Shown piece after piece: positions 1-29,329 of a DNA stretch of 29,329 nt. The notes beneath the pieces were generated by a model, which was not told the origin of the DNA, ran no database searches, and saw nothing but the letters and a program-made list of their open reading frames with translations. Every line of letters starts with the position of its first letter. Positions within the stretch are counted from its first letter, which is position 1. The position numbers and the translations under genes are program-made. Origin of the DNA: a virus; IMG/VR virus record IMGVR_UViG_3300042559_002565, positions 1-29,329 of that record, one strand, 5' to 3'.

Positions 1-127
1 CTGAGCCCCTTCCGTGTCTGCTCGCTATCCATTGCTCCTCCTACTGGCTGTCGCCGCTCTCGGGCACGTACGGTACTTCCGTCTGTGGCCCCTGTGGCGT
101 GCCGCTGTGATCGCCGTTGTCTACGCA
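1..127. repeat. Terminal direct repeat, left copy (assembly overlap of a circular genome)
   Basis: Identical base for base to 29203-29329. Reading frames continue coherently through the join: the gene that starts at 29234 is preceded, across the join, by the gene ending at 41. The length of 127 is a common assembly k-mer size, so this is most simply a closure artefact and not a biological terminal repeat. The true physical ends of the packaged DNA cannot be read from the window. Confidence 0.95.
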
Positions 128-15183: not shown

Positions 15184-16341
15184 TTAGACGTTTGCGCCCT
15201 TGAACGACTTCACGGCGCTCGCCTGAACGAGGCCCGTGGCGCCGCGAACCTGGACACGGTACGTGACCAAGCCGTTGGCGAAGGCGTACTCGTTGGACAC
15301 TGCGATCTCGACACCGCCTACGAGGAGGGTCTTGATCTCCTTGAGATCACCGAAGAGGACGCTTACGGCCTCATCGCCGGTGTCTACCAGTGCGCCTGAC
15401 CAGACTGGGAAGCCGAGGAGCGTATCAGGCCCACCGAGATTCCCCGCCTCGAAGATCGGGCGGTTCTGGCTGTCGAGCAACTTGCGGACTCCGCCGAGGG
15501 TCGCATCGTTCATGATGAACCCTGCGCCTGGAGCCTTGCGGTAGCGCTGATTGACCGAGTACACGAGGTCTACGAGGTCGGCGTAAACCGGGGCCACTGC
15601 GGCGCCCGTCTTACCAACCGTCGCGGCTGCGGCAACGGCTGGAGCCGCTACTGCACCGTGAGCGATACCGACTTCCTGACCGGCCTTCTCCGCGATCATC
15701 GCTGAGATGTCGAACGCGGCGTCGCGCACGAGTTCATCGGTGACCTGGATCAGGGTGGCGTACTTCGCTGGGGTCAGCGAGAGCGACGACAGGGTGCCGT
15801 CCGACTCGCCGATCGAGCCCGCCTCGGAGACGGCGGCAGCGGTGCCGAGTGCCGTCACGCGTGGGAACTGGAAGTTATTGCCATTGCTCACCGTGTACAG
15901 GTCGATGACCCGTGCGTCGATGAATGGGTTTACCTGGCCCGCGACCACGTTCACCCGGGCGGCGATGCCGACTGGGTTGCCGAGGCCTGTGGACTTGGTG
16001 ACATCGCGCTTCTCGAAGTCGAAGGCGACGCGGCCCCCGTTCATGCCGATGCGGCGAAGCTCGGACTCGTCCGTGGCGCGCTCTGCCTTCACTGGCGCCT
16101 CGATGGCGGCGGCGAAGCGGGTGCGCGACTCGAGGGCGGCCTTCTCGGCGGCCTCGATCTTCTCTGCGGCGGCGATCTGCGCGGCCTTCGAGTCCATGTC
16201 TGCGAACGCGCGGTCCACAGTCTGGTTCTCTTCGGCGGTGAGGTCACGCTTGGCGTCGGCGGCGGCCTCTAGGACTGCCTTAGCCGCTGCGGCTGCGCGC
16301 TGGCGCTCGTCGTGGAGCGCGTTGATGAGGTTCTCGCTCAT
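15184..16341 (-). CDS. Major capsid protein, HK97 fold
   Basis: A 385-aa protein. Residues 1-85 are a charged Ala/Glu-rich coiled coil (LINALHDERQRAAAAAKAVLE), typical of the delta scaffolding domain removed by the prohead protease. The remainder shows the HK97 capsid pattern: an N-arm with VNPFIDARVIDLYTVSNGNNFQFPR, a spine region (TPAKYATLIQVTDELVRDAAFD), and ending SNEYAFANGLVTYRVQVRGATGLV. The cleavage site is probably near residues 90-110, just before the arm. The codon choice is more uniform than elsewhere, as expected for the most expressed gene. The start has a GGGGAAAC site. It forms the capsid shell. Confidence 0.9.
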   Translation of the reverse strand: MSENLINALHDERQRAAAAAKAVLEAAADAKRDLTAEENQTVDRAFADMDSKAAQIAAAEKIEAAEKAALESRTRFAAAIEAPVKAERATDESELRRIGMNGGRVAFDFEKRDVTKSTGLGNPVGIAARVNVVAGQVNPFIDARVIDLYTVSNGNNFQFPRVTALGTAAAVSEAGSIGESDGTLSSLSLTPAKYATLIQVTDELVRDAAFDISAMIAEKAGQEVGIAHGAVAAPAVAAAATVGKTGAAVAPVYADLVDLVYSVNQRYRKAPGAGFIMNDATLGGVRKLLDSQNRPIFEAGNLGGPDTLLGFPVWSGALVDTGDEAVSVLFGDLKEIKTLLVGGVEIAVSNEYAFANGLVTYRVQVRGATGLVQASAVKSFKGANV

Positions 16342-16437: not shown

Positions 16438-18030
16438 TTATTCTCCGATGCGCTCCTTCAAGGCGAGCATCTTTGCCCTGACTGACGTCGGGACGGTGAC
16501 GCTTCCCTCGAACGCACGGATGATAGCAGATGCATCCTCCTCCGCAACCGTGTCGCCGCGGAGCCAGGTGCTGACTGCTTTCCATAGGCCCTCCGCTTCG
16601 ATGCCGCGGCGCTTCGCGAGCCCGCGTACGGATGCGAGTCCGATGGTGCCCGGGTATGCGGGCGTGTGCCCCGTGAGCAGGCTTACCTCGTGGAGGGCGG
16701 CCTCATTGACGGTGCGCTTATTGCCATCCCAATCCTCATCCATCACGCGGAATCCGAATGACCATGCGATTGCTTGGGGGTCGCGCTGCGCGAGTGCGAG
16801 CAGGTGATCGCCGATTGGGCTCTTGATAATGTCGGCGGTGACCTGTAGCCCGCGCTCATCCTGGCTGAGGCTGAGGCTGGTCGGGGTTGCGGCGAGCATC
16901 TGACTCTCATCGTGCCCGTGGAGTAGTTTGACTACCTTCCCCGAAGCTGCGACCTGCCCGAGGCTGCGGGTGAATGCGCCCGGTGCCAGCCGCTCGATGA
17001 ATGGCATTGGGCTCGAGTCTGAGTTGAATAGCGCGGCGTAGCCGACAATCGTGCGGGCCTCGGTGTCCACGCGTAGTTCACCCGTGTAGGCTCGCGTCTC
17101 CACTTCCCCTTTGACCGCATGGTATTCCGCCGGTGCCTCGGTGGGCGCCTCGGTTGGGGTCTCGGTCGGGGTCTCTACTGGGGTCTCTGTTGGCTCGACG
17201 TCGGTGCGCTCTTGCTCATTGTCCATTGCCATCACCACCCTTTCGGCGTAATCATACGCGCGGCTCGCCTTATCCGTTGTATCGCCGCTGCCCCATAGCA
17301 GATGTGCGATCTGCCCTGCGGTGGGGCGCTCGCCCTCCGCGATCGGGCTGACGCCCTCTAGGTCGCTGAGGTGGCGTGCGATCCACGCCCTCATCCTACG
17401 CCATTTATCCTCGGTTGCGCGACCCCGTGCTAGATCGCGGGCCTCGGTGATCGTATTGGGGCGGAGTCCGTCGCCCTTGTATTCAAGTAGGTCGAGGCCC
17501 CTGATGGCGTTTTGGCGCATAAAGTCGGGCACGCTGAGGTCTGCGCGTGATTCTGGGTTGGACGCGTTTTCGGCATCGCTAGACGGATTCTCCTCCTCGG
17601 GCTTATCCTCCTCGCCCTCGCCCGGGTACTCCGCCGTAAGCTCGGATACTGCCTCCTCGGGCGTCCACGGGCTGATCTCGTACTTGTCGAGCGCCATGGC
17701 GCGTACGTCGGCGTTGTCGTCTACGGCGTATTCCAACTCATCGCCGTACTTCTCTACGAGCAGGCCGTACTTGTAATCCTTGAAGGCGAGCCCGGTGGCG
17801 AAGGGTGTGCCCTCGAAGTCATTGAGATGCACGCCTACGATGCCCGCTACGCCGTGCTCTTGTAGCCATGCTCGGGTCTCCTCTAGGCGGTCGATGCTGC
17901 GCGCGCTGACGATCTCGACCTGGAAGTCTCCGCTCATAACGGCGCGGTTGATCGCGTCGATGAGTGGCTGACGTGGGGTGTCTCCCGTGGTGGTTAGCGT
18001 GCCGTCGATGTCGGCGATGAGCACGCTCAC
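16438..18030 (-). CDS. HAD phosphatase - phage domain - prohead protease fusion
   Basis: A 530-aa continuous frame. Residues 1-135 are a HAD-type phosphatase: DIDGTL (motif I, D7/D9), VSARS (motif II), FKDYKYG (motif III Lys), AVDDNADV (motif IV). Residues 148-153 (NPSSDA) are a linker encoded by a perfect motif copy. About 166-270 are a helical phage domain (VPDFMRQNAIRGLDLLE ... AGQIAHLLWG). Then comes a T/E/P linker (277-302). About 310-530 are an HK97-type (S78/U35-like) prohead protease: YAALFNS, LLHGHDES with His371/373, WSFGF with Ser424, HEVSLLT with Glu448. GTG start; overlaps the portal stop (GTGA). The protease trims the capsid delta domain. The phosphatase's substrate is unknown; it may end-process nucleic acid. 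Confidence 0.85.
   Translation of the reverse strand: MSVLIADIDGTLTTTGDTPRQPLIDAINRAVMSGDFQVEIVSARSIDRLEETRAWLQEHGVAGIVGVHLNDFEGTPFATGLAFKDYKYGLLVEKYGDELEYAVDDNADVRAMALDKYEISPWTPEEAVSELTAEYPGEGEEDKPEEENPSSDAENASNPESRADLSVPDFMRQNAIRGLDLLEYKGDGLRPNTITEARDLARGRATEDKWRRMRAWIARHLSDLEGVSPIAEGERPTAGQIAHLLWGSGDTTDKASRAYDYAERVVMAMDNEQERTDVEPTETPVETPTETPTEAPTEAPAEYHAVKGEVETRAYTGELRVDTEARTIVGYAALFNSDSSPMPFIERLAPGAFTRSLGQVAASGKVVKLLHGHDESQMLAATPTSLSLSQDERGLQVTADIIKSPIGDHLLALAQRDPQAIAWSFGFRVMDEDWDGNKRTVNEAALHEVSLLTGHTPAYPGTIGLASVRGLAKRRGIEAEGLWKAVSTWLRGDTVAEEDASAIIRAFEGSVTVPTSVRAKMLALKERIGE
17572..17588 (-). repeat. Dispersed 17-bp motif, in-gene copy (phosphatase/protease fusion)
   Basis: 17/17 match. 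It encodes NPSSDA exactly at the junction after the HAD phosphatase domain. Confidence 0.92.
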
Positions 18031-19289
18031 AGGCCGCTGATCCTCGCCGCCTCATCGGGCGCGATGCCTGACTTGATGAGCGTCTCGTAGATGTTGGCGC
18101 GACCCTGCGTGTCGGCGGTGCCCGCGGGCGCGAAGCCTAGTTGCATGCGGTAGATGGCGCCCTGCCCGTCTGGGAGGGGCGGTAGGTCTTCGATCCTGCG
18201 CGCCTCATCCACGCTGATCCAACCGGTGTTGATGGCGCTGGCTAGGGCGTCGTACCTGCTCTTGGTATCGGCGCGTAGTAGGCCCTCGACGTTGAAGCGG
18301 ATGTATGTGTCTCCGCCGGGGATGAGTCGGGCTAGGCCCGTCTCGATGCGGTCGAGGATTGGCTTGATGGTGAAGGTCACATACTCTTGGGCTTGAAGCT
18401 CGACCGACGCGTATGACACGGCGCCCGGCTTGAGGATGCCGAGCAGGTGGGCGGGCACGCGGAAGATGCGGGCGATCTCCTCCACTTGGAAGCCGCGAAG
18501 CTCGAGGAATTGCGCCTGCTCTGGGGTGATGCTGATGGCGTCAAACTTAGCGCCGCCCGTTAGTACGGCGATGCGGTGGGCGTTGCCGAGGCCCTCGTGA
18601 TGCCGTGCGAAGTTGCGGCGGATGCTCCCCGCCTGCTCCTCGGTGAGGTCGCCCGGCACATTGACGATGCCGCTCGGGGTGGCGTTCTGACCGAAGAAGC
18701 GTCCACCGTACTCTTCTGCGGCGATTGCTACGCCGTAGGTCGCCTTCAGGTGGTCGATTGGGCTGAGGCCGCGGTTGTAGCCTGGCAAGCGGAAGAGCGG
18801 GATGTGGATGATCTCATCCTGCGTGTAAGTCGCCTTCGCGCCTGATGGCGTGAGCACCTCGTACACTGGGAGCCCGTTTACGCGTGTGACGGTGATGGCA
18901 CGCGGTGCGAGTACGTCGAGGAAGACTGGCGCTCCCGTAGTGTCTCGGGTGACGGCGATGAACGCATTGCCGTCGGTGAGCAGGCTCGCGACGATCTGGC
19001 TGACAAGCTCGACGCGCGTGACGCTCTTATCGGGGCTCGGGCTCTCGATCCACGTCGGCTTTGGGCGTAGTGGCTGTCGGAGTCCATTGGTCTTTTGGAA
19101 GGCGTCGAGCGGGAGCCCCCCGACCGTGTCGCTGATGAGGCGGATTGCCGCATATACGGCGCTGATCTGGGTGGCGCGATCCTGGTTGATTTCTACGGGT
19201 GAGTACTGCCCCGGTGGGCCGTCAAAGAATCGGTCAATGCCGATTGCGCGCTGCTCTTGCCTACCGAAGATGCGGTCGATGACGCCCAT
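18027..19289 (-). CDS. Portal protein, HK97 type
   Basis: A 420-aa protein. HK97-type portal signatures: ISAVYAAIRLISDTVGGLPL, YNRGLSPIDHLKATYGVAIAAEEY, FFGQNATPSGIVNVPG, FQVEEIARIFRVPAHLLG and FNVEGLLRADTKSRYDALASAINTGWISVDEARR, in the order expected (clip, wing, stem, crown). The length is ordinary for the family. The start has a GGGAGG site. It forms the dodecameric channel through which DNA enters and leaves the capsid and on which terminase docks. Confidence 0.92.
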   Translation of the reverse strand: MGVIDRIFGRQEQRAIGIDRFFDGPPGQYSPVEINQDRATQISAVYAAIRLISDTVGGLPLDAFQKTNGLRQPLRPKPTWIESPSPDKSVTRVELVSQIVASLLTDGNAFIAVTRDTTGAPVFLDVLAPRAITVTRVNGLPVYEVLTPSGAKATYTQDEIIHIPLFRLPGYNRGLSPIDHLKATYGVAIAAEEYGGRFFGQNATPSGIVNVPGDLTEEQAGSIRRNFARHHEGLGNAHRIAVLTGGAKFDAISITPEQAQFLELRGFQVEEIARIFRVPAHLLGILKPGAVSYASVELQAQEYVTFTIKPILDRIETGLARLIPGGDTYIRFNVEGLLRADTKSRYDALASAINTGWISVDEARRIEDLPPLPDGQGAIYRMQLGFAPAGTADTQGRANIYETLIKSGIAPDEAARISGL

Positions 19290-19362: not shown

Positions 19363-20844
19363 TTATAGCGTGATGAAGTTTACTGCCGCTTGGGGTCGCT
19401 CATCGTCGGCGATGATCGCGTTGGCGCGGGCGAGCCCGAAGACGGCGGCGACTGCTAGGTCGATCTTCCTCCCGCCCTTATCTTTCGTCAAGCGGGTGCC
19501 GTGGCGGTCGGTCTTGACTGAGGCGTTGGCGACGTGCCGGGCGAGGCGCTTATCGCCGCTGTGCTTGAGCCTCTGGGTGGTGACGGCGTCGTAGAAGGCG
19601 CTCGTGGCGGGTGTCATGCGGGCGGCGTGTTGCGGGAACTCGGTGATCGGGAGGCCCTCCCCCGCGAGGATTTGCAGGCTGCGTGCCCATCGGAAGGGGT
19701 CGGCGGTGATCTCTCGTACGGTGTGGGTGCGGGCTACTTCCCTGATCCGCTCCTCTACCGCTTCGATGTCTACTCGCCAATGCTCGTCATCCAAGGGGCG
19801 CTCCCATAGCCCCATGACGTCGATGAGTCCATCGCTGAGGCGGATGCCGATGAGGGCGGTGCTATCGTTGGAGAAGCTACCGTCTAGCGCGAGGATGATG
19901 CGGTCGCCCGGGCGGATTTTATCGTCTACGGCGCATAGATCCCATGCCCCTGTCGGTAGCCATGCCTGCGTGCTCGCCACCCACTGGTTGAGGCGCTTTG
20001 TGCGCCACTCGTTTTCGGGTGTGCGCATGATGGCGCTGCGGAAGTCGTCGGCGCTGACGATGTCGCCGTAGCCTGGGTTGGCGGCGGCCCACACCGCCTC
20101 CTCTCGATGGTCGGCGTCTACGGGTGCGCCCCACCAGCGGAAGAAGAAGCTCGGGTCGTCTACCTCATTGACGGCGACGCGCTGCCCATGCTGATACAGG
20201 CGGTGCGCGATGGTGTCTCGCCCGTTGGCGTCGGTGCGTGCTCCCGCGGTGGTGATCATTGCGAGCATCGGTTCTACTCGGGCGCCCTGCGCGAGGGCGA
20301 ACACGTTCCATAGATCCTCGTTGATGACGTGCCCCTCGTCTACGAGGGTGAAGGTCGGGCTGAGGCCCTCTTTCAGGGGTGCATCGCTGCTGACGACGCG
20401 CCAAAGGGTGCCCGTGATCGGGTTCTCGATGGCATCGCGGTACAGGTTGAGCATGCTGCTGAGTTCCGGGTCGAGTTCTACCATGCGGCGCCCGGTGCCG
20501 AAGGTGATACGTGCCTGCTCTCTGTCGCCTGCTACTGAGTACACCTCGCCGCCGTCGGGGCCGAGCACCGTCGCCCAAAGCGCCAACCCGCTGAGTAGGG
20601 CTGACTTCCCGTTCTTACGGGGGAGCCCGATGAGTGCCTGTCGGTGGGCGAGATGCCCATCCTCCCGCTCGCGTAATAGGTCGTCGAGAAGCTGACGCTG
20701 ATACGGGCGTAGGCGGATGGTCTCGCCTACCGCGCCGCCGAGCGACTCCTTCACGATGCGGCAATAGTGCTCGATGAAGGTCGCCGCCTCTTCGCCTCGG
20801 GTGCTCCCCTCCCGTTGCGGTGATCCGTAGAGGGGGGTGCTCAT
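19363..20844 (-). CDS. terL: Terminase large subunit
   Basis: A 493-aa protein. The ATPase half has LRPYQRQLLDDLL (adenine-binding-like), Walker A GLPRKNGKS (73-81), Walker B TFTLVDE (164-170) and the coupling motif MITTAG (196-201). The nuclease half starts about residue 310, with ALDGSFSND (D321) and further acidic positions (TADPF; KIDLAVAAVFGLARA near the end), in an RNase H fold. It is of the HK97-like Terminase_1 type, which often uses cohesive ends, but the end type cannot be read from the sequence. The start overlaps the small subunit stop (ATGA). It drives DNA into the prohead and cuts it. Confidence 0.93.
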   Translation of the reverse strand: MSTPLYGSPQREGSTRGEEAATFIEHYCRIVKESLGGAVGETIRLRPYQRQLLDDLLREREDGHLAHRQALIGLPRKNGKSALLSGLALWATVLGPDGGEVYSVAGDREQARITFGTGRRMVELDPELSSMLNLYRDAIENPITGTLWRVVSSDAPLKEGLSPTFTLVDEGHVINEDLWNVFALAQGARVEPMLAMITTAGARTDANGRDTIAHRLYQHGQRVAVNEVDDPSFFFRWWGAPVDADHREEAVWAAANPGYGDIVSADDFRSAIMRTPENEWRTKRLNQWVASTQAWLPTGAWDLCAVDDKIRPGDRIILALDGSFSNDSTALIGIRLSDGLIDVMGLWERPLDDEHWRVDIEAVEERIREVARTHTVREITADPFRWARSLQILAGEGLPITEFPQHAARMTPATSAFYDAVTTQRLKHSGDKRLARHVANASVKTDRHGTRLTKDKGGRKIDLAVAAVFGLARANAIIADDERPQAAVNFITL

Positions 20845-21341
20845 CCTGCCGCCTTATTCCGTTCCTCATCCTGTTGGGCGACGCGCTGCGCCCGGCGGGC
20901 GAGGAGTAGTTCCAGGGGGCTCGGGGCCGCCTTACTGGTGGACTTCATGCCTACTCGGGCGCTTGGGGTGAGCCCTAGTTCACGGGCTCCCGCGCGCATC
21001 ATCGTGGCGTTATCGCGCATCACCTGATGTAAAGGATTCTTCACGTACTCGCCGTTGCGCCCCTTTACGAGTGGCCCGCTCTTACGGAGGAGCCCCTCCG
21101 CCTCGCGGTATCGGGCGGTCGCCTCGCAGTACGCGCGTAGGGTGTCTACGTCGGCGGCGGTGATGACGCCCGTGTGCCCGACTGCGGCGATTACCTCACG
21201 CCATACGTCGAGGGCGTCTTCAGCGATGTCGGGTGGCGGCTGTAGGGTGCTGAGTGTTGGGCGCGGTTCATTGAGCGGCACGATCTTCCCCTCGGTGGCT
21301 CGGATGGCACTCGGCTTAGGCTTAGGCCCCCGCTTTCCCAT
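20841..21341 (-). CDS. terS: Terminase small subunit, P27 family
   Basis: A 166-aa protein. The N-terminus MGKRGPKPKPSAIR and the segment PPPDIAEDALDVWREVIAAVG, followed by DVDTLRAYCEATARYREAEGLL and KNPLHQVMRDNATMMRAGARELGLTPSAR, match the P27-type small terminase throughout. The tail is charged (QRVAQQDEERNKAAG). The start is preceded by GAGGAGGAGC, an A7 tract and a motif copy. It recognises the packaging site and loads the large subunit. It is the first gene of the late order. Confidence 0.88.
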   Translation of the reverse strand: MGKRGPKPKPSAIRATEGKIVPLNEPRPTLSTLQPPPDIAEDALDVWREVIAAVGHTGVITAADVDTLRAYCEATARYREAEGLLRKSGPLVKGRNGEYVKNPLHQVMRDNATMMRAGARELGLTPSARVGMKSTSKAAPSPLELLLARRAQRVAQQDEERNKAAG

Positions 21342-21380: not shown

Positions 21381-22244
21381 CTATGAGCCGGGCTCCGCCG
21401 GGTGGGCGCCATCTGCCCACGGGGTCTTCGCGGTTGCGCGCTCCTCTTCCCGTTGCGTGCGGCGCTTCGCCCCCTTCGCCGTCTCTACGGCGTAGGTGAA
21501 GCAATCCTTCATGCCCCTGAGCGCATAGTAGACCACGGAGAAGCGGTATCCATCCTCGGTGCTCTTCGCCATCGGGGTGACGCCGTGCACGATGCGGTAG
21601 CCGTTGAAGAAGACCACCCAACCGTCTCTGCATCCCACGGTGAGGCCGTACTCGGGCACGTTGAGGTATCCGCCCCTCATGCCACGTCGGACTACGGGCA
21701 TGGCGCTCCATGAGTCGAAGTTGAATCCATCGCGGTGGTAGGGGAGCGTTGCGCTGCGGTTGATGTTGCCTGACGTCCATAGGGCGCCCTCGGTGATCCT
21801 CCAGTCCTTGTCGATTTCGGCTAGGGCGTCGATGTTCTCTTGGTACTTCTCGGGGCTGATCTCACGTAGGGTCTCGCCCAAGTCGAGGGCGAGCCGGGCG
21901 AGGAAGGCGTGCTCACTTGGGCGCTCGTAGGCCAGACTTGCGGGTCGGCACGCGTCTCGCCCCTGCATGACCTTTCGGGGTGCCATGCCGAAGCTGCGGG
22001 ACTCTTGGTCGATGCCTGACGCCCGCTTGACGCTGCCCATTGGCGTGTTGAGGACGGCGGCTCGGAGGTCTTCGGTGCCGCTCTTGAGGGGGGCGTAGAC
22101 CAGTACGATCTCGCCCGTTTCGGCGTCTACGTAGATGCCCTCATCGTTCACGGTGCTCTCGAAGTCGGGCACGGTCTCGCCTACGAGGGCGGTTGCATCC
22201 TTCCCCGTCATGAGCCTGCTGACCTCGATTACTGGTAGCGTCAT
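21381..22244 (-). CDS. TET/JBP-like 2-oxoglutarate/Fe(II) dioxygenase
   Basis: The start is 22244 (GGAGGCACG site, ATGA overlap with the upstream gene). A 287-aa protein. Residues about 165-250 show the 2OG/Fe(II) core: LPYHRDGFN (H170, D172), WSAMPVVRRGMRGGYLNVPEYGL, FFNGYRIVHGVTP (H220), DGYRFSVVYYA (R234), then GMKDC. The HxD ... H ... R layout plus GGYLxxPEY and MKDC recall phage TET/JBP-like enzymes that oxidise 5-methylpyrimidines in DNA (family knowledge, recalled and not searched). No methyltransferase is encoded here, so the substrate would be host-made 5mC, thymine, or something else. It is placed with two ParB-like genes. Confidence 0.7.
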   Translation of the reverse strand: MTLPVIEVSRLMTGKDATALVGETVPDFESTVNDEGIYVDAETGEIVLVYAPLKSGTEDLRAAVLNTPMGSVKRASGIDQESRSFGMAPRKVMQGRDACRPASLAYERPSEHAFLARLALDLGETLREISPEKYQENIDALAEIDKDWRITEGALWTSGNINRSATLPYHRDGFNFDSWSAMPVVRRGMRGGYLNVPEYGLTVGCRDGWVVFFNGYRIVHGVTPMAKSTEDGYRFSVVYYALRGMKDCFTYAVETAKGAKRRTQREEERATAKTPWADGAHPAEPGS

Positions 22245-22864
22245 CGTGCCTCCTCGGTGTTGATTGCGTCGAGTATAAGGCGCTCGACGGCCTCTGCGTT
22301 GGATTCTACGCCCAACCGGGTGCGCGTCTCCCGTAGGCGCTCGATCGCCCACTCGTACTGCTCTACTGGCATGCGGAAGAGGAAGCTACGCGATGCCCGC
22401 ATGGCGTAGAAGTCGGCGATGGCGCGGTCGCCGTCGGTGACGGTGAGTACGGGGATGTTCACCGAGGGGCTGACGAGGTCGTCGATCTCCTCCCACGTGA
22501 AGCCCGCTACGCCCGCGAGCCCTGCTCCGAGGGTGTCGAGTTGCGCCTTTAGCCGGCGGTTATCCCAGAGGCTGAGTTCCCCGGTGCGGTTATCGGCGAT
22601 GGCGTACGCTCGGGCCTCGCTTATGCGGTCGGCGGGGTAGTCCACGGCGGTGATCTCTGTCCACCCGAGGCGCTTCGCCGCTTCTACCGTGCCGTTGCCC
22701 GCGACGATGGTGGTGCCCGCGATCACGATCGGCTTACGCTGCCCGAATGCGCTGAGGCTCTTTGCGATGGCGCTGATGTTGCGCTCCGAGTGCACGCGGG
22801 CATTCTCGGGGTCGGGCTGTAGGTCGGCGATCGCTACGGTGCGAAGCTCGATTGGCGCCGTCAT
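22241..22864 (-). CDS. ParB-like nuclease-domain protein 1
   Basis: A 207-aa protein. Residues 8-100 are a ParB/Srx-type domain: VAIADLQPDPENARVH, ISAIAKSLSAFGQRKPIVIA, GNGTVEAAKRLGWTEI, AYAIADNRTGELSLWD. Unlike chromosomal ParB there is no HTH/dimer domain. Instead there is a unique C-terminal helical part (RMPVEQYEWAIERLRETRTRLGVESNAEAVERLIL) that resembles the end of the neighbouring ParB-like protein. Phage ParB-like domains are often fused to methylases or act as nucleases or CTP-dependent clamps; none of that is shown here. It overlaps both neighbours by ATGA. Confidence 0.8.
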   Translation of the reverse strand: MTAPIELRTVAIADLQPDPENARVHSERNISAIAKSLSAFGQRKPIVIAGTTIVAGNGTVEAAKRLGWTEITAVDYPADRISEARAYAIADNRTGELSLWDNRRLKAQLDTLGAGLAGVAGFTWEEIDDLVSPSVNIPVLTVTDGDRAIADFYAMRASRSFLFRMPVEQYEWAIERLRETRTRLGVESNAEAVERLILDAINTEEAR

Positions 22865-23520
22865 CGTGGCGCCTCGGTGCCGGTGGCGGTGGCGAGTAGG
22901 TGTAGCAGCGCCTCATTGTTGCCCTCGAGCCCGTGGATGCTGCGGTAGGAAGCCCACGCGTCGATGAGGGCGAGATAGCGGGGCATCGGGTACTCCAGGA
23001 CGATGTTGCGCTCGGTTGATGCCAGGTAGGCGTCGTAGCCTTCATTGGCGCTCTGCGCGCGCTTATAGCCTGACTGGTGGCCCTCTGACTCTCCCGGGGC
23101 GTTAGCCTGGGCTAGGAGTTCCGACTTGATCTGATCGTACTCTGCTCGGGTGAATCCCGTTGCGGCGATGGTCTCGCCGTCGGCATCCCGTAGGGCGGCG
23201 ATGAGCGCCTCATGGCTCCACTCGGCTAGGGTGCCCGTTCGATTGTCGGCGATTGCGTAAGCTCGACGCTGCTCCATGCTCTCGAAGGGGGCGACTACGG
23301 CGTCGATTTCCGTCCATCCGAGCGCCTTCGCGGCGGCGTACGTGCCGTTGCCTGCGATGACCGTGCCCTTATCGTCGAGGACGATGGGTCGGCGCTGCCC
23401 GAAGGCGGTGAGGCTGCGTGCGATGGCGTCGATCTGCCGGGCGTCGTGCACTCGGGCGTTATCGTCGTCGGCCCTGATGGCGTCGAGCCTGACCCTCGTG
23501 GCGGTCATTGCGGTGCTCAT
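22861..23520 (-). CDS. ParB-like nuclease-domain protein 2
   Basis: A 219-aa protein. Same ParB core (LDAIRADDDNARVH, IDAIARSLTAFGQRRPIVLD, AGNGTYAAAKALGWTEI, AYAIADNRTGTLAEW), followed by a longer linker (residues about 130-170) and the related C-terminal part (RNIVLEYPMPRYLALIDAWASYRSIHGLEGNNEALLHLL). The two tandem proteins are a diverged duplication. GGAGGAGC site; the start overlaps the HNH stop (ATGA) and its own stop overlaps the next ParB start. Partner genes suggest DNA handling or modification; the precise role is unknown. Confidence 0.8.
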   Translation of the reverse strand: MSTAMTATRVRLDAIRADDDNARVHDARQIDAIARSLTAFGQRRPIVLDDKGTVIAGNGTYAAAKALGWTEIDAVVAPFESMEQRRAYAIADNRTGTLAEWSHEALIAALRDADGETIAATGFTRAEYDQIKSELLAQANAPGESEGHQSGYKRAQSANEGYDAYLASTERNIVLEYPMPRYLALIDAWASYRSIHGLEGNNEALLHLLATATGTEAPR

Positions 23521-28553: not shown

Positions 28554-29234
28554 CTAGAAGGGTAGGTCATTTAGGTCCACCTCGCCGTCGCGAGTCGGCT
28601 CTCCGACCACGGGTGCGGGTGGCTGGCTGGCGCCGCCGTTATAGCCGCGTGGCGGCTTACTGCGGCAATACCCGCCGTCGGGCGTCTTACCCTTACACGT
28701 CCAGAACCCCTCGTATGCCTTGCCGGTGGCCTTACTGATGCCGCCTTCGCGGTATACGTAGGGCTCACCGTGATCGGGGCACGCGAGAACGGCATCGCTA
28801 GACGGATTCACCCTCGGGGGGGTGCTCACCGCCGCCTCTACCGCGGGTCGACTGAACGGGCGTGGCGCCGAAGCTGGATTCGACTCCGCCCCGTGGGCGT
28901 ACAAGTACGCCGCTACGCCCGTGAGGCTCGCGCATCGACGTAGGGCGTCGCTGCTCGCCTCTTTCAAGGTCTCGCCGCTGCCCCCCGTCTCGTACCCGTA
29001 ATCTTCGTACACTCCCCCGGGGAGGCTGAGTCGCCCCTTCACGACGTTATCGTGCCCGGGTACCTGGCTGACCTCGAATGACCATGCCCCTACGCCGATC
29101 ACCTCATTGAGGCGTTGCGCTACGAGCCTGGCCTCTACCCACTGGAGTTTCATGCCCGCTCGCCCTTCGCGGGTGCGGATTTGCTCGGGTGGGAATGGGG
29201 CACTGAGCCCCTTCCGTGTCTGCTCGCTATCCAT
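28554..29234 (-). CDS. Rad52-like single-strand annealing protein with zinc site and SSB-like tail
   Basis: A 226-aa protein. Residues 9-115 are a Rad52/Rad22-type annealing domain: GLSAPFPPEQIRTREGRAG, LQWVEARLVAQRLNEVIG, VYEDYGYETGGSG, EASSDALRRCASLTGV. Residues 118-148 are a linker containing NPSSDA (143-148), encoded by a perfect motif copy. Then C152/H155 and C180/C190 make a zinc-ribbon-like module. The last residues DGEVDLNDLPF mimic the acidic hydrophobic tip of bacterial SSB (DDDIPF), which docks DNA-repair proteins. The start has a GGAGGAGC site. Together with the PD-(D/E)XK nuclease and RusA it makes a recombination set. No separate SSB gene was found. Confidence 0.85.
   Translation of the reverse strand: MDSEQTRKGLSAPFPPEQIRTREGRAGMKLQWVEARLVAQRLNEVIGVGAWSFEVSQVPGHDNVVKGRLSLPGGVYEDYGYETGGSGETLKEASSDALRRCASLTGVAAYLYAHGAESNPASAPRPFSRPAVEAAVSTPPRVNPSSDAVLACPDHGEPYVYREGGISKATGKAYEGFWTCKGKTPDGGYCRSKPPRGYNGGASQPPAPVVGEPTRDGEVDLNDLPF
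28791..28807 (-). repeat. Dispersed 17-bp motif, in-gene copy (Rad52-like linker)
   Basis: 17/17 match. It encodes NPSSDA between the annealing domain and the zinc module. Confidence 0.92.
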
Positions 29235-29329
29235 TGCTCCTCCTACTGGCTGTCGCCGCTCTCGGGCACGTACGGTACTTCCGTCTGTGGCCCCTGTGGC
29301 GTGCCGCTGTGATCGCCGTTGTCTACGCA
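29203..29329. repeat. Terminal direct repeat, right copy
   Basis: Second copy of bases 1-127. It duplicates the start of the Rad52-like gene and the 3' end of the 129-aa membrane-protein gene (41-430), so that gene appears here only as a fragment. Ignore this copy when counting genes. Confidence 0.95.

Follow-up and report, generated by a model that had tools for sequence, protein, structure and literature searches.

A HAD-type phosphatase domain fused in frame to the head maturation protease of a metagenomic phage and its environmental relatives

Results and discussion

The fused gene and its genomic setting

The window, by which we mean the whole stretch of DNA analysed (29,329 nucleotides, spanning the IMG/VR record IMGVR_UViG_3300042559_002565), carries on its minus strand a gene in which a HAD phosphatase domain, a helical domain and an S78 head maturation protease follow one another (Table 1). 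An earlier note on this DNA had described the arrangement as a fusion in one unbroken frame, and a 530-aa ORF does lie exactly there; the plus strand over the same interval contains many stops. The GTG start of the fused gene overlaps the portal stop by 4 nt, and the gene sits between the portal and major capsid genes, as expected of an S78 (HK97-type) prohead protease. The HK97-type major capsid protein is the presumed substrate of the protease. Since a 127-bp direct repeat is found at both ends of the window (1-127 and 29203-29329), the window is probably a complete genome, circular or terminally redundant. The nearest terminases among isolates are those of Pontimonas phage phiPsal1, followed by Streptomyces phages, and judging from these sequences the host is probably an actinobacterium. 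Elsewhere in the window, a Tet/JBP-type oxygenase adjoins two tandem ParB-like proteins (21381-22352, 22241-22864 and 22861-23520), an arrangement that is often tied to DNA modification.

Table 1. Positions of the fused gene, its parts and neighbouring features in the window
Feature	Coordinates	Strand	Size or residues	Basis or remark
Copies of ATCCGTCTAGCGATGCC	3205, 5943, 8511, 12484, 14927, 17572, 21362, 25303, 28791	-	17 bp each	
HK97-type major capsid protein, downstream of fused gene	15184..16341	-		Pfam PF05065, E 3e-35
E110-K-R112-D113 of capsid protein, propeptide boundary	16003..16014	-		aligned capsid proteins
Fused gene (HAD phosphatase, helical domain, S78 head maturation protease)	16438..18030	-	530 aa	
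S78 prohead protease domain and C-terminal helices	16441..17088	-	residues 315-530	Pfam match, T4 gp21 fold
Linker 2, with PTET repeats	17089..17220	-	residues 271-314	pLDDT <50 at 272-308
Helical domain typical of head-protease N-termini	17221..17541	-	residues 164-270	phiPsal1 similarity, model helices
Linker 1, hypervariable, acidic	17542..17628	-	residues 135-163	pLDDT <50 at 139-163; dN/dS 0.41-0.92
Copy of ATCCGTCTAGCGATGCC in fused gene	17572..17588	-	17 bp	encodes residues 148-153 of linker 1
HAD domain	17629..18030	-	residues 1-134	AlphaFold2 model, T4 Pnkp fold match, residue conservation
Portal protein, upstream neighbour of fused gene	18027..19289	-		Pfam PF04860, E 1.4e-87
Terminase large subunit, upstream of fused gene	19363-20844			
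Terminase small subunit, upstream of fused gene	20841-21341			

Structure prediction, which the earlier note had proposed as a check, was applied to the whole protein. The AlphaFold2 model (pLDDT 73.6, pTM 0.36) contains folded HAD, helical and S78 blocks joined by low-confidence stretches, and both linkers are predicted to be disordered. The low pTM reflects domains that are not packed together, and we therefore claim no interdomain contacts. The protease part matched Pfam PF04586 (Peptidase_S78) over residues 323-462 (E 3e-23; 83.2 bits, cut-off 21), was assigned by PHROG to the head maturation proteases, and its model shares the herpes-type protease fold of T4 gp21 (Z 12.3). The description of a complete prohead protease with His, Ser and Glu was borne out, as H373, S424 and E448, which from knowledge of the S78 family we take to be the catalytic triad, are invariant in 20 diverse homologues. 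The helical phage domain was likewise recovered, both as helices in the model and as a segment 45% identical over 103 aa to the prohead protease of phage phiPsal1.

A 17-bp element, ATCCGTCTAGCGATGCC, occurs nine times in the window with zero to two mismatches, against a chance expectation of 0.12. All copies run in the direction of the genes and are spaced 2.4-4.0 kb apart round the circle; a minimum gap that large has a probability of about 2e-5 by simulation. The copies lie in protein linkers or between genes, and their positions are kept in related contigs. The copy within the fused gene, about 13 residues past the end of the folded HAD, had been taken as a perfect motif copy marking the fusion point; the copy is real, but as one of nine across the genome it is not specific to the fusion, and a fusion scar is ruled out since most copies lie outside the fused gene. 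A stoperator-, antitermination- or Chi-like role is possible. Inspection of the linker by eye also spoke against two candidate internal starts that would yield the protease alone: the ATG preceded by GGAGGAG in the element is out of frame, and Met171 has no good ribosome-site candidate ahead of it.

The HAD domain and its conservation

Taken alone, the window protein gives a weak HAD signal, with Pfam Hydrolase_3 below its cut-off (E 0.023) and the PHROG polynucleotide kinase family at E 8.6e-6. The identity of the domain becomes clear with a family profile and a structure model. The four HAD motifs named in the earlier note are all present, namely DIDGTL (residues 7-12), VSARS (41-45), FKDYKYG (83-89) and VDDNADV (103-109), and supply the catalytic residues D7, D9, S42, R44, K84 and D104. 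Modelled separately (AlphaFold2, 50 homologues; pLDDT 94.1, pTM 0.87), the 134 residues are predicted to form a Rossmann-like core whose secondary structure has no cap insert, in keeping with a cap-less (C0) domain.

Among solved structures the model came closest to chains of T4 polynucleotide kinase, with Z 16.3 and an rmsd of 2.0 Å over 118 residues at 21% identity; a family profile searched against solved structures found Pnkp1 (E 2.3e-8) and T4 Pnkp (E 1.3e-5). By nearest fold and profile, the domain appears to be a cap-less phosphatase of the polynucleotide-kinase 3'-phosphatase type. It shares the fold, the HAD motifs and equivalents of Arg213 and Lys258 with the 3'-phosphatase of T4 (PDB 5uj0, 1rrc) and with bacterial Pnkp1 (4xrp), and differs from both in having neither a kinase or ligase partner nor the Arg176/NGR-PYD loop. 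Aligned by profile with T4 Pnkp and Pnkp1, the HAD showed no counterpart of this loop, which follows motif I, position 18 being variable; an attached 5'-kinase or ligase was found neither in the fused gene nor among the scanned window proteins, a set that leaves out some small ORFs. These two differences make a classical role in 3'-end repair doubtful. With the HAD_PNKP family (PF25109), one protein of the second clade described below (L216) scored 28.8 bits against a cut-off of 27.6, others scored 14-26 bits, and the window protein was not reported.

HADs in this position fall into two clades, between which identity is 0.19-0.39 (mean 0.29; 121 HADs). Across all 121, no substitution was seen at D7, D9, T11, R44, K84 or R110, D104 was replaced once (by E), and position 42 was always S or T. 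In motif IV, 71 of 75 clade-1 members have N at the second acidic position, which puts the DD of the window in the minority. Because D7, D9, T11, S/T42, R44, K84 and D104 are kept in 120 or 121 of the 121 sequences across clades only about 29% identical, catalytic activity of the HAD has probably been selected. Between close relatives, dN/dS was 0.08-0.40 for the HAD and 0.02-0.09 for the protease, with 0.41-0.92 for linker 1 and 0.10-0.52 for linker 2; by this measure the HAD and the protease are both under purifying selection.

Recurrence of the fusion and a modular N-terminal slot

The fused protein belongs to a large modular class and is not a singular fusion, a point that the earlier note had missed. 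About 177 further IMG/VR contigs (contigs not being equivalent to independent phages) have a HAD at this position, with the portal gene on one side and the capsid gene on the other, and 166 of these hold HAD and protease in one frame, the remainder running off contig ends. No contig of this set encodes the HAD as a separate gene, although the searches were seeded with conserved peptides of the fused HAD and would miss less similar free-standing versions. The note had also named homologues in which the first 135 residues form a separate overlapping gene as evidence against the fusion, and none was seen among the same contigs.

Six contigs (L004-L009) carry close homologues, 74-100% identical (five full length and L009 partial). 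A HAD-only search gave 75 loci, 70 with HAD and S78 in one frame and five running off the contig. A broader HAD search added 63 loci (13 of them repeats by contig name), all fused or running off the contig, and a search with a Dps module added six contigs. The second, remote clade comprised 47 loci, of which 43 have both domains and three are partial; the last (L253), a Pnkp-like protein that is more distant and stands alone, was left out of the contig total.

Several architectures were found, in the orders HAD-helical-S78, HAD-S78, HAD-Cys-helical-S78 and Cys-HAD-helical-S78, and some relatives have no HAD at all. Protease N-termini of the Pontimonas type (L124-L203) are mosaics, in many orders, of WATIKDDGE, Cys/HIPIP-like, DUF3721, Hva1_TUDOR and DUF5824 modules, and the remote HAD is another module mixed into them. 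In nine contigs, including L250 (2812-4755), L252 (2812-4761) and L321-L326, a HAD is followed by a Dps ferritin and then by the S78 protease in one frame; the Dps module was identified by PF00210 (E 5e-14) and Dps 8ff9 (E 1.2e-16). As a conjecture, the Dps beside the HAD hints at protection of packaged DNA. On the basis of these sequences we propose that the N-terminal propeptide region of the protease is a slot for accessory modules.

Over 65 distant loci of clade 1, identity to the window averages 66% for the HAD and 40% for the protease, a gap that stems partly from searches selecting similar HADs. The HAD and protease trees disagree in places, with weak AU tests (p 0.026, 0.097, 0.15 and 0.21), which suggests that HAD modules have been exchanged. 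Among close relatives, the HAD stretch of L006 (4001-4450) is 93% identical to that of L007 and 70-85% identical to that of the window, and the L006 protease is nearer to the window, which can be read as recombination inside the fused gene.

Among the closest known counterparts is the prohead protease of phage phiPsal1 (MG835450; Peptidase_S78, PHROG 80), which has the same gene position, helical domain and S78 protease. Together with its relatives it resembles the window in having variable N-terminal modules, but in phiPsal1 itself a Cys domain and the short WATIKDDGE module precede the protease and, unlike in the window, there is no HAD; some uncultured relatives of phiPsal1 do carry the remote HAD. 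Judged by predicted structures, UniProt A0A6J5R419 and similar entries from uncultured Caudovirales share the architecture of the window protein (HAD 48% identical). They are named automatically by one domain only, either 'Prohead protease' or 'HAD-like domain containing protein', and we found no description of the fusion for them. No fused HAD appeared among the matches listed for isolated phages (one listing giving the best 50 of 519 records) or for plasmids, and one pattern-limited scan of GTDB species genomes returned two unconvincing short matches and no prophage or host. Open-licence papers yielded none on a HAD-head protease fusion. The parts are thus known, and the arrangement is new and recurrent, with no cultured phage, prophage or paper containing it in the collections searched.

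Candidate cleavage sites in the linkers

Each linker ends in a candidate self-cleavage site, E160-S-R162-A163 in linker 1 and E311-T-R313-A314 in linker 2. Both conform to [ED]-x-R, which is also found at the propeptide boundary of the capsid protein. The motif was chosen after viewing the alignments, so that the following comparison with shuffled sequences overstates the evidence: it was present at the capsid boundary in 58 of 58 aligned capsid proteins (shuffles mean 16.9, maximum 28), at the start of the helical domain in 36 of 41 (mean 17.3, maximum 25) and at the start of the S78 protease in 34 of 48 (mean 11.1, maximum 20). Control windows inside domains gave 4/43 and 1/48. We read [ED]-x-R as a cut site because the capsid protein must be cut near that place. 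The motif could instead be structural, marking the start of the helical domain and the first protease strand. Of the release by self-cleavage that the earlier note had suggested, what stands is a motif common to the capsid propeptide boundary and the module junctions; this pattern is a first hint in the sequences that the modules may release themselves.

A proposed route into the prohead and its alternatives

A head maturation protease has to be inside the prohead to function, and a HAD fused to it would therefore enter as well. In cap-less HADs the active site lies open and can take large substrates, which makes nucleic-acid ends or phosphoproteins likelier substrates here than small metabolites. 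The mechanism that we propose, in which prohead entry, cleavage, catalysis and substrate are each inferred, would run as follows. The fusion protein would enter the prohead along with its protease. Once activated, the protease would cleave EKR/D in the capsid protein and, in its own chain, two sites of the same motif kind, ESR/A and ETR/A. The HAD, set free in the head interior or the assembly complex, would then dephosphorylate a large, open substrate, for which nucleic-acid ends are the most plausible candidate. We give this reading, from carriage in the protease slot through to dephosphorylation of nucleic-acid ends, an even chance of being correct; it predicts cleavage at [ED]-x-R.

Known systems provide precedents for parts of this mechanism. 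In T4 and in giant phages, the prohead protease strips propeptides from internal head proteins, and the giant-phage enzymes auto-cleave (PMC5694885). For T4 gp21, HK97 gp4 and the T4 internal proteins, too, processing takes place inside the prohead and proteins are carried into heads. In T4 the cargo consists of separate proteins directed by their own short propeptides, whereas the putative cargo of the window is fused to the protease.

The HAD could have been fused for co-expression only and act as a late cytoplasmic phosphatase (on nucleotides, RNA ends or proteins) with no head function. The conserved catalytic residues fit that case, flexible linkers would let the HAD work freely, and free-standing phage HAD/Pnkp phosphatases exist, including relatives in the viral structure library such as A0A6J5PPF4 (149 aa). 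However, the 177 related contigs contain no free-standing HAD, co-expression leaves the Cys, TUDOR, DUF and Dps modules of the same slot unexplained, and many neighbouring late genes were available for fusion, yet it was the protease that was fused. We consider this explanation unlikely, though one that deserves to be taken seriously.

It is improbable that the HAD is a structural propeptide that aids incorporation of the protease or fills the prohead, its catalysis a relic. A slot that tolerates unrelated modules, and relatives that do without a HAD, would fit such a role, but a structural relic would lose the catalytic positions that are kept in both distant clades.

A further alternative concerns the substrate, which might be a lipid or phosphoprotein. 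Foldseek ranks the phosphatase domains of Nir2 and lipin/Pah with Pnkp1 as matches to the HAD, so that the substrate cannot be read from the fold by itself, and phosphatidic acid is bound or acted on by the lipin and Nir2 domains. T4 Pnkp is nevertheless first by VIA Z-score, 16.3 against 15.0 and 14.3 for the Nir2/lipin-type domains, and sequence profiles find Pnkp and not lipins, which leaves a lipid or phosphoprotein substrate with a slim chance.

That a sequencing or assembly error joined two genes, a concern with any metagenomic virus record and one raised in the earlier note, is refuted to near certainty by independent contigs from many samples that carry the same frame with differing linker lengths, and by purifying selection on both domains.

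Implications

A protease that carries an intact HAD in a bacterial virus, and in well over a hundred relatives from environmental DNA, suggests that enzymes ride into the forming head on the protease. More generally, and more tentatively than for the HAD itself, the N-termini of aquatic-phage proteases may be a loading dock from which HAD, Dps, Cys and TUDOR-like modules are carried into the prohead and self-cleaved free, with HAD and Dps protecting or healing the packaged genome. If the proposed route is true, it would be a second way in which phages load enzymes into the capsid, with the cargo built into a self-releasing protease in contrast to the short targeting peptide of T4. It would explain the varied front ends of these head proteases, assign a role to proteins that now carry a one-domain name in databases, and provide a simple way of putting cargo into HK97-type capsids.
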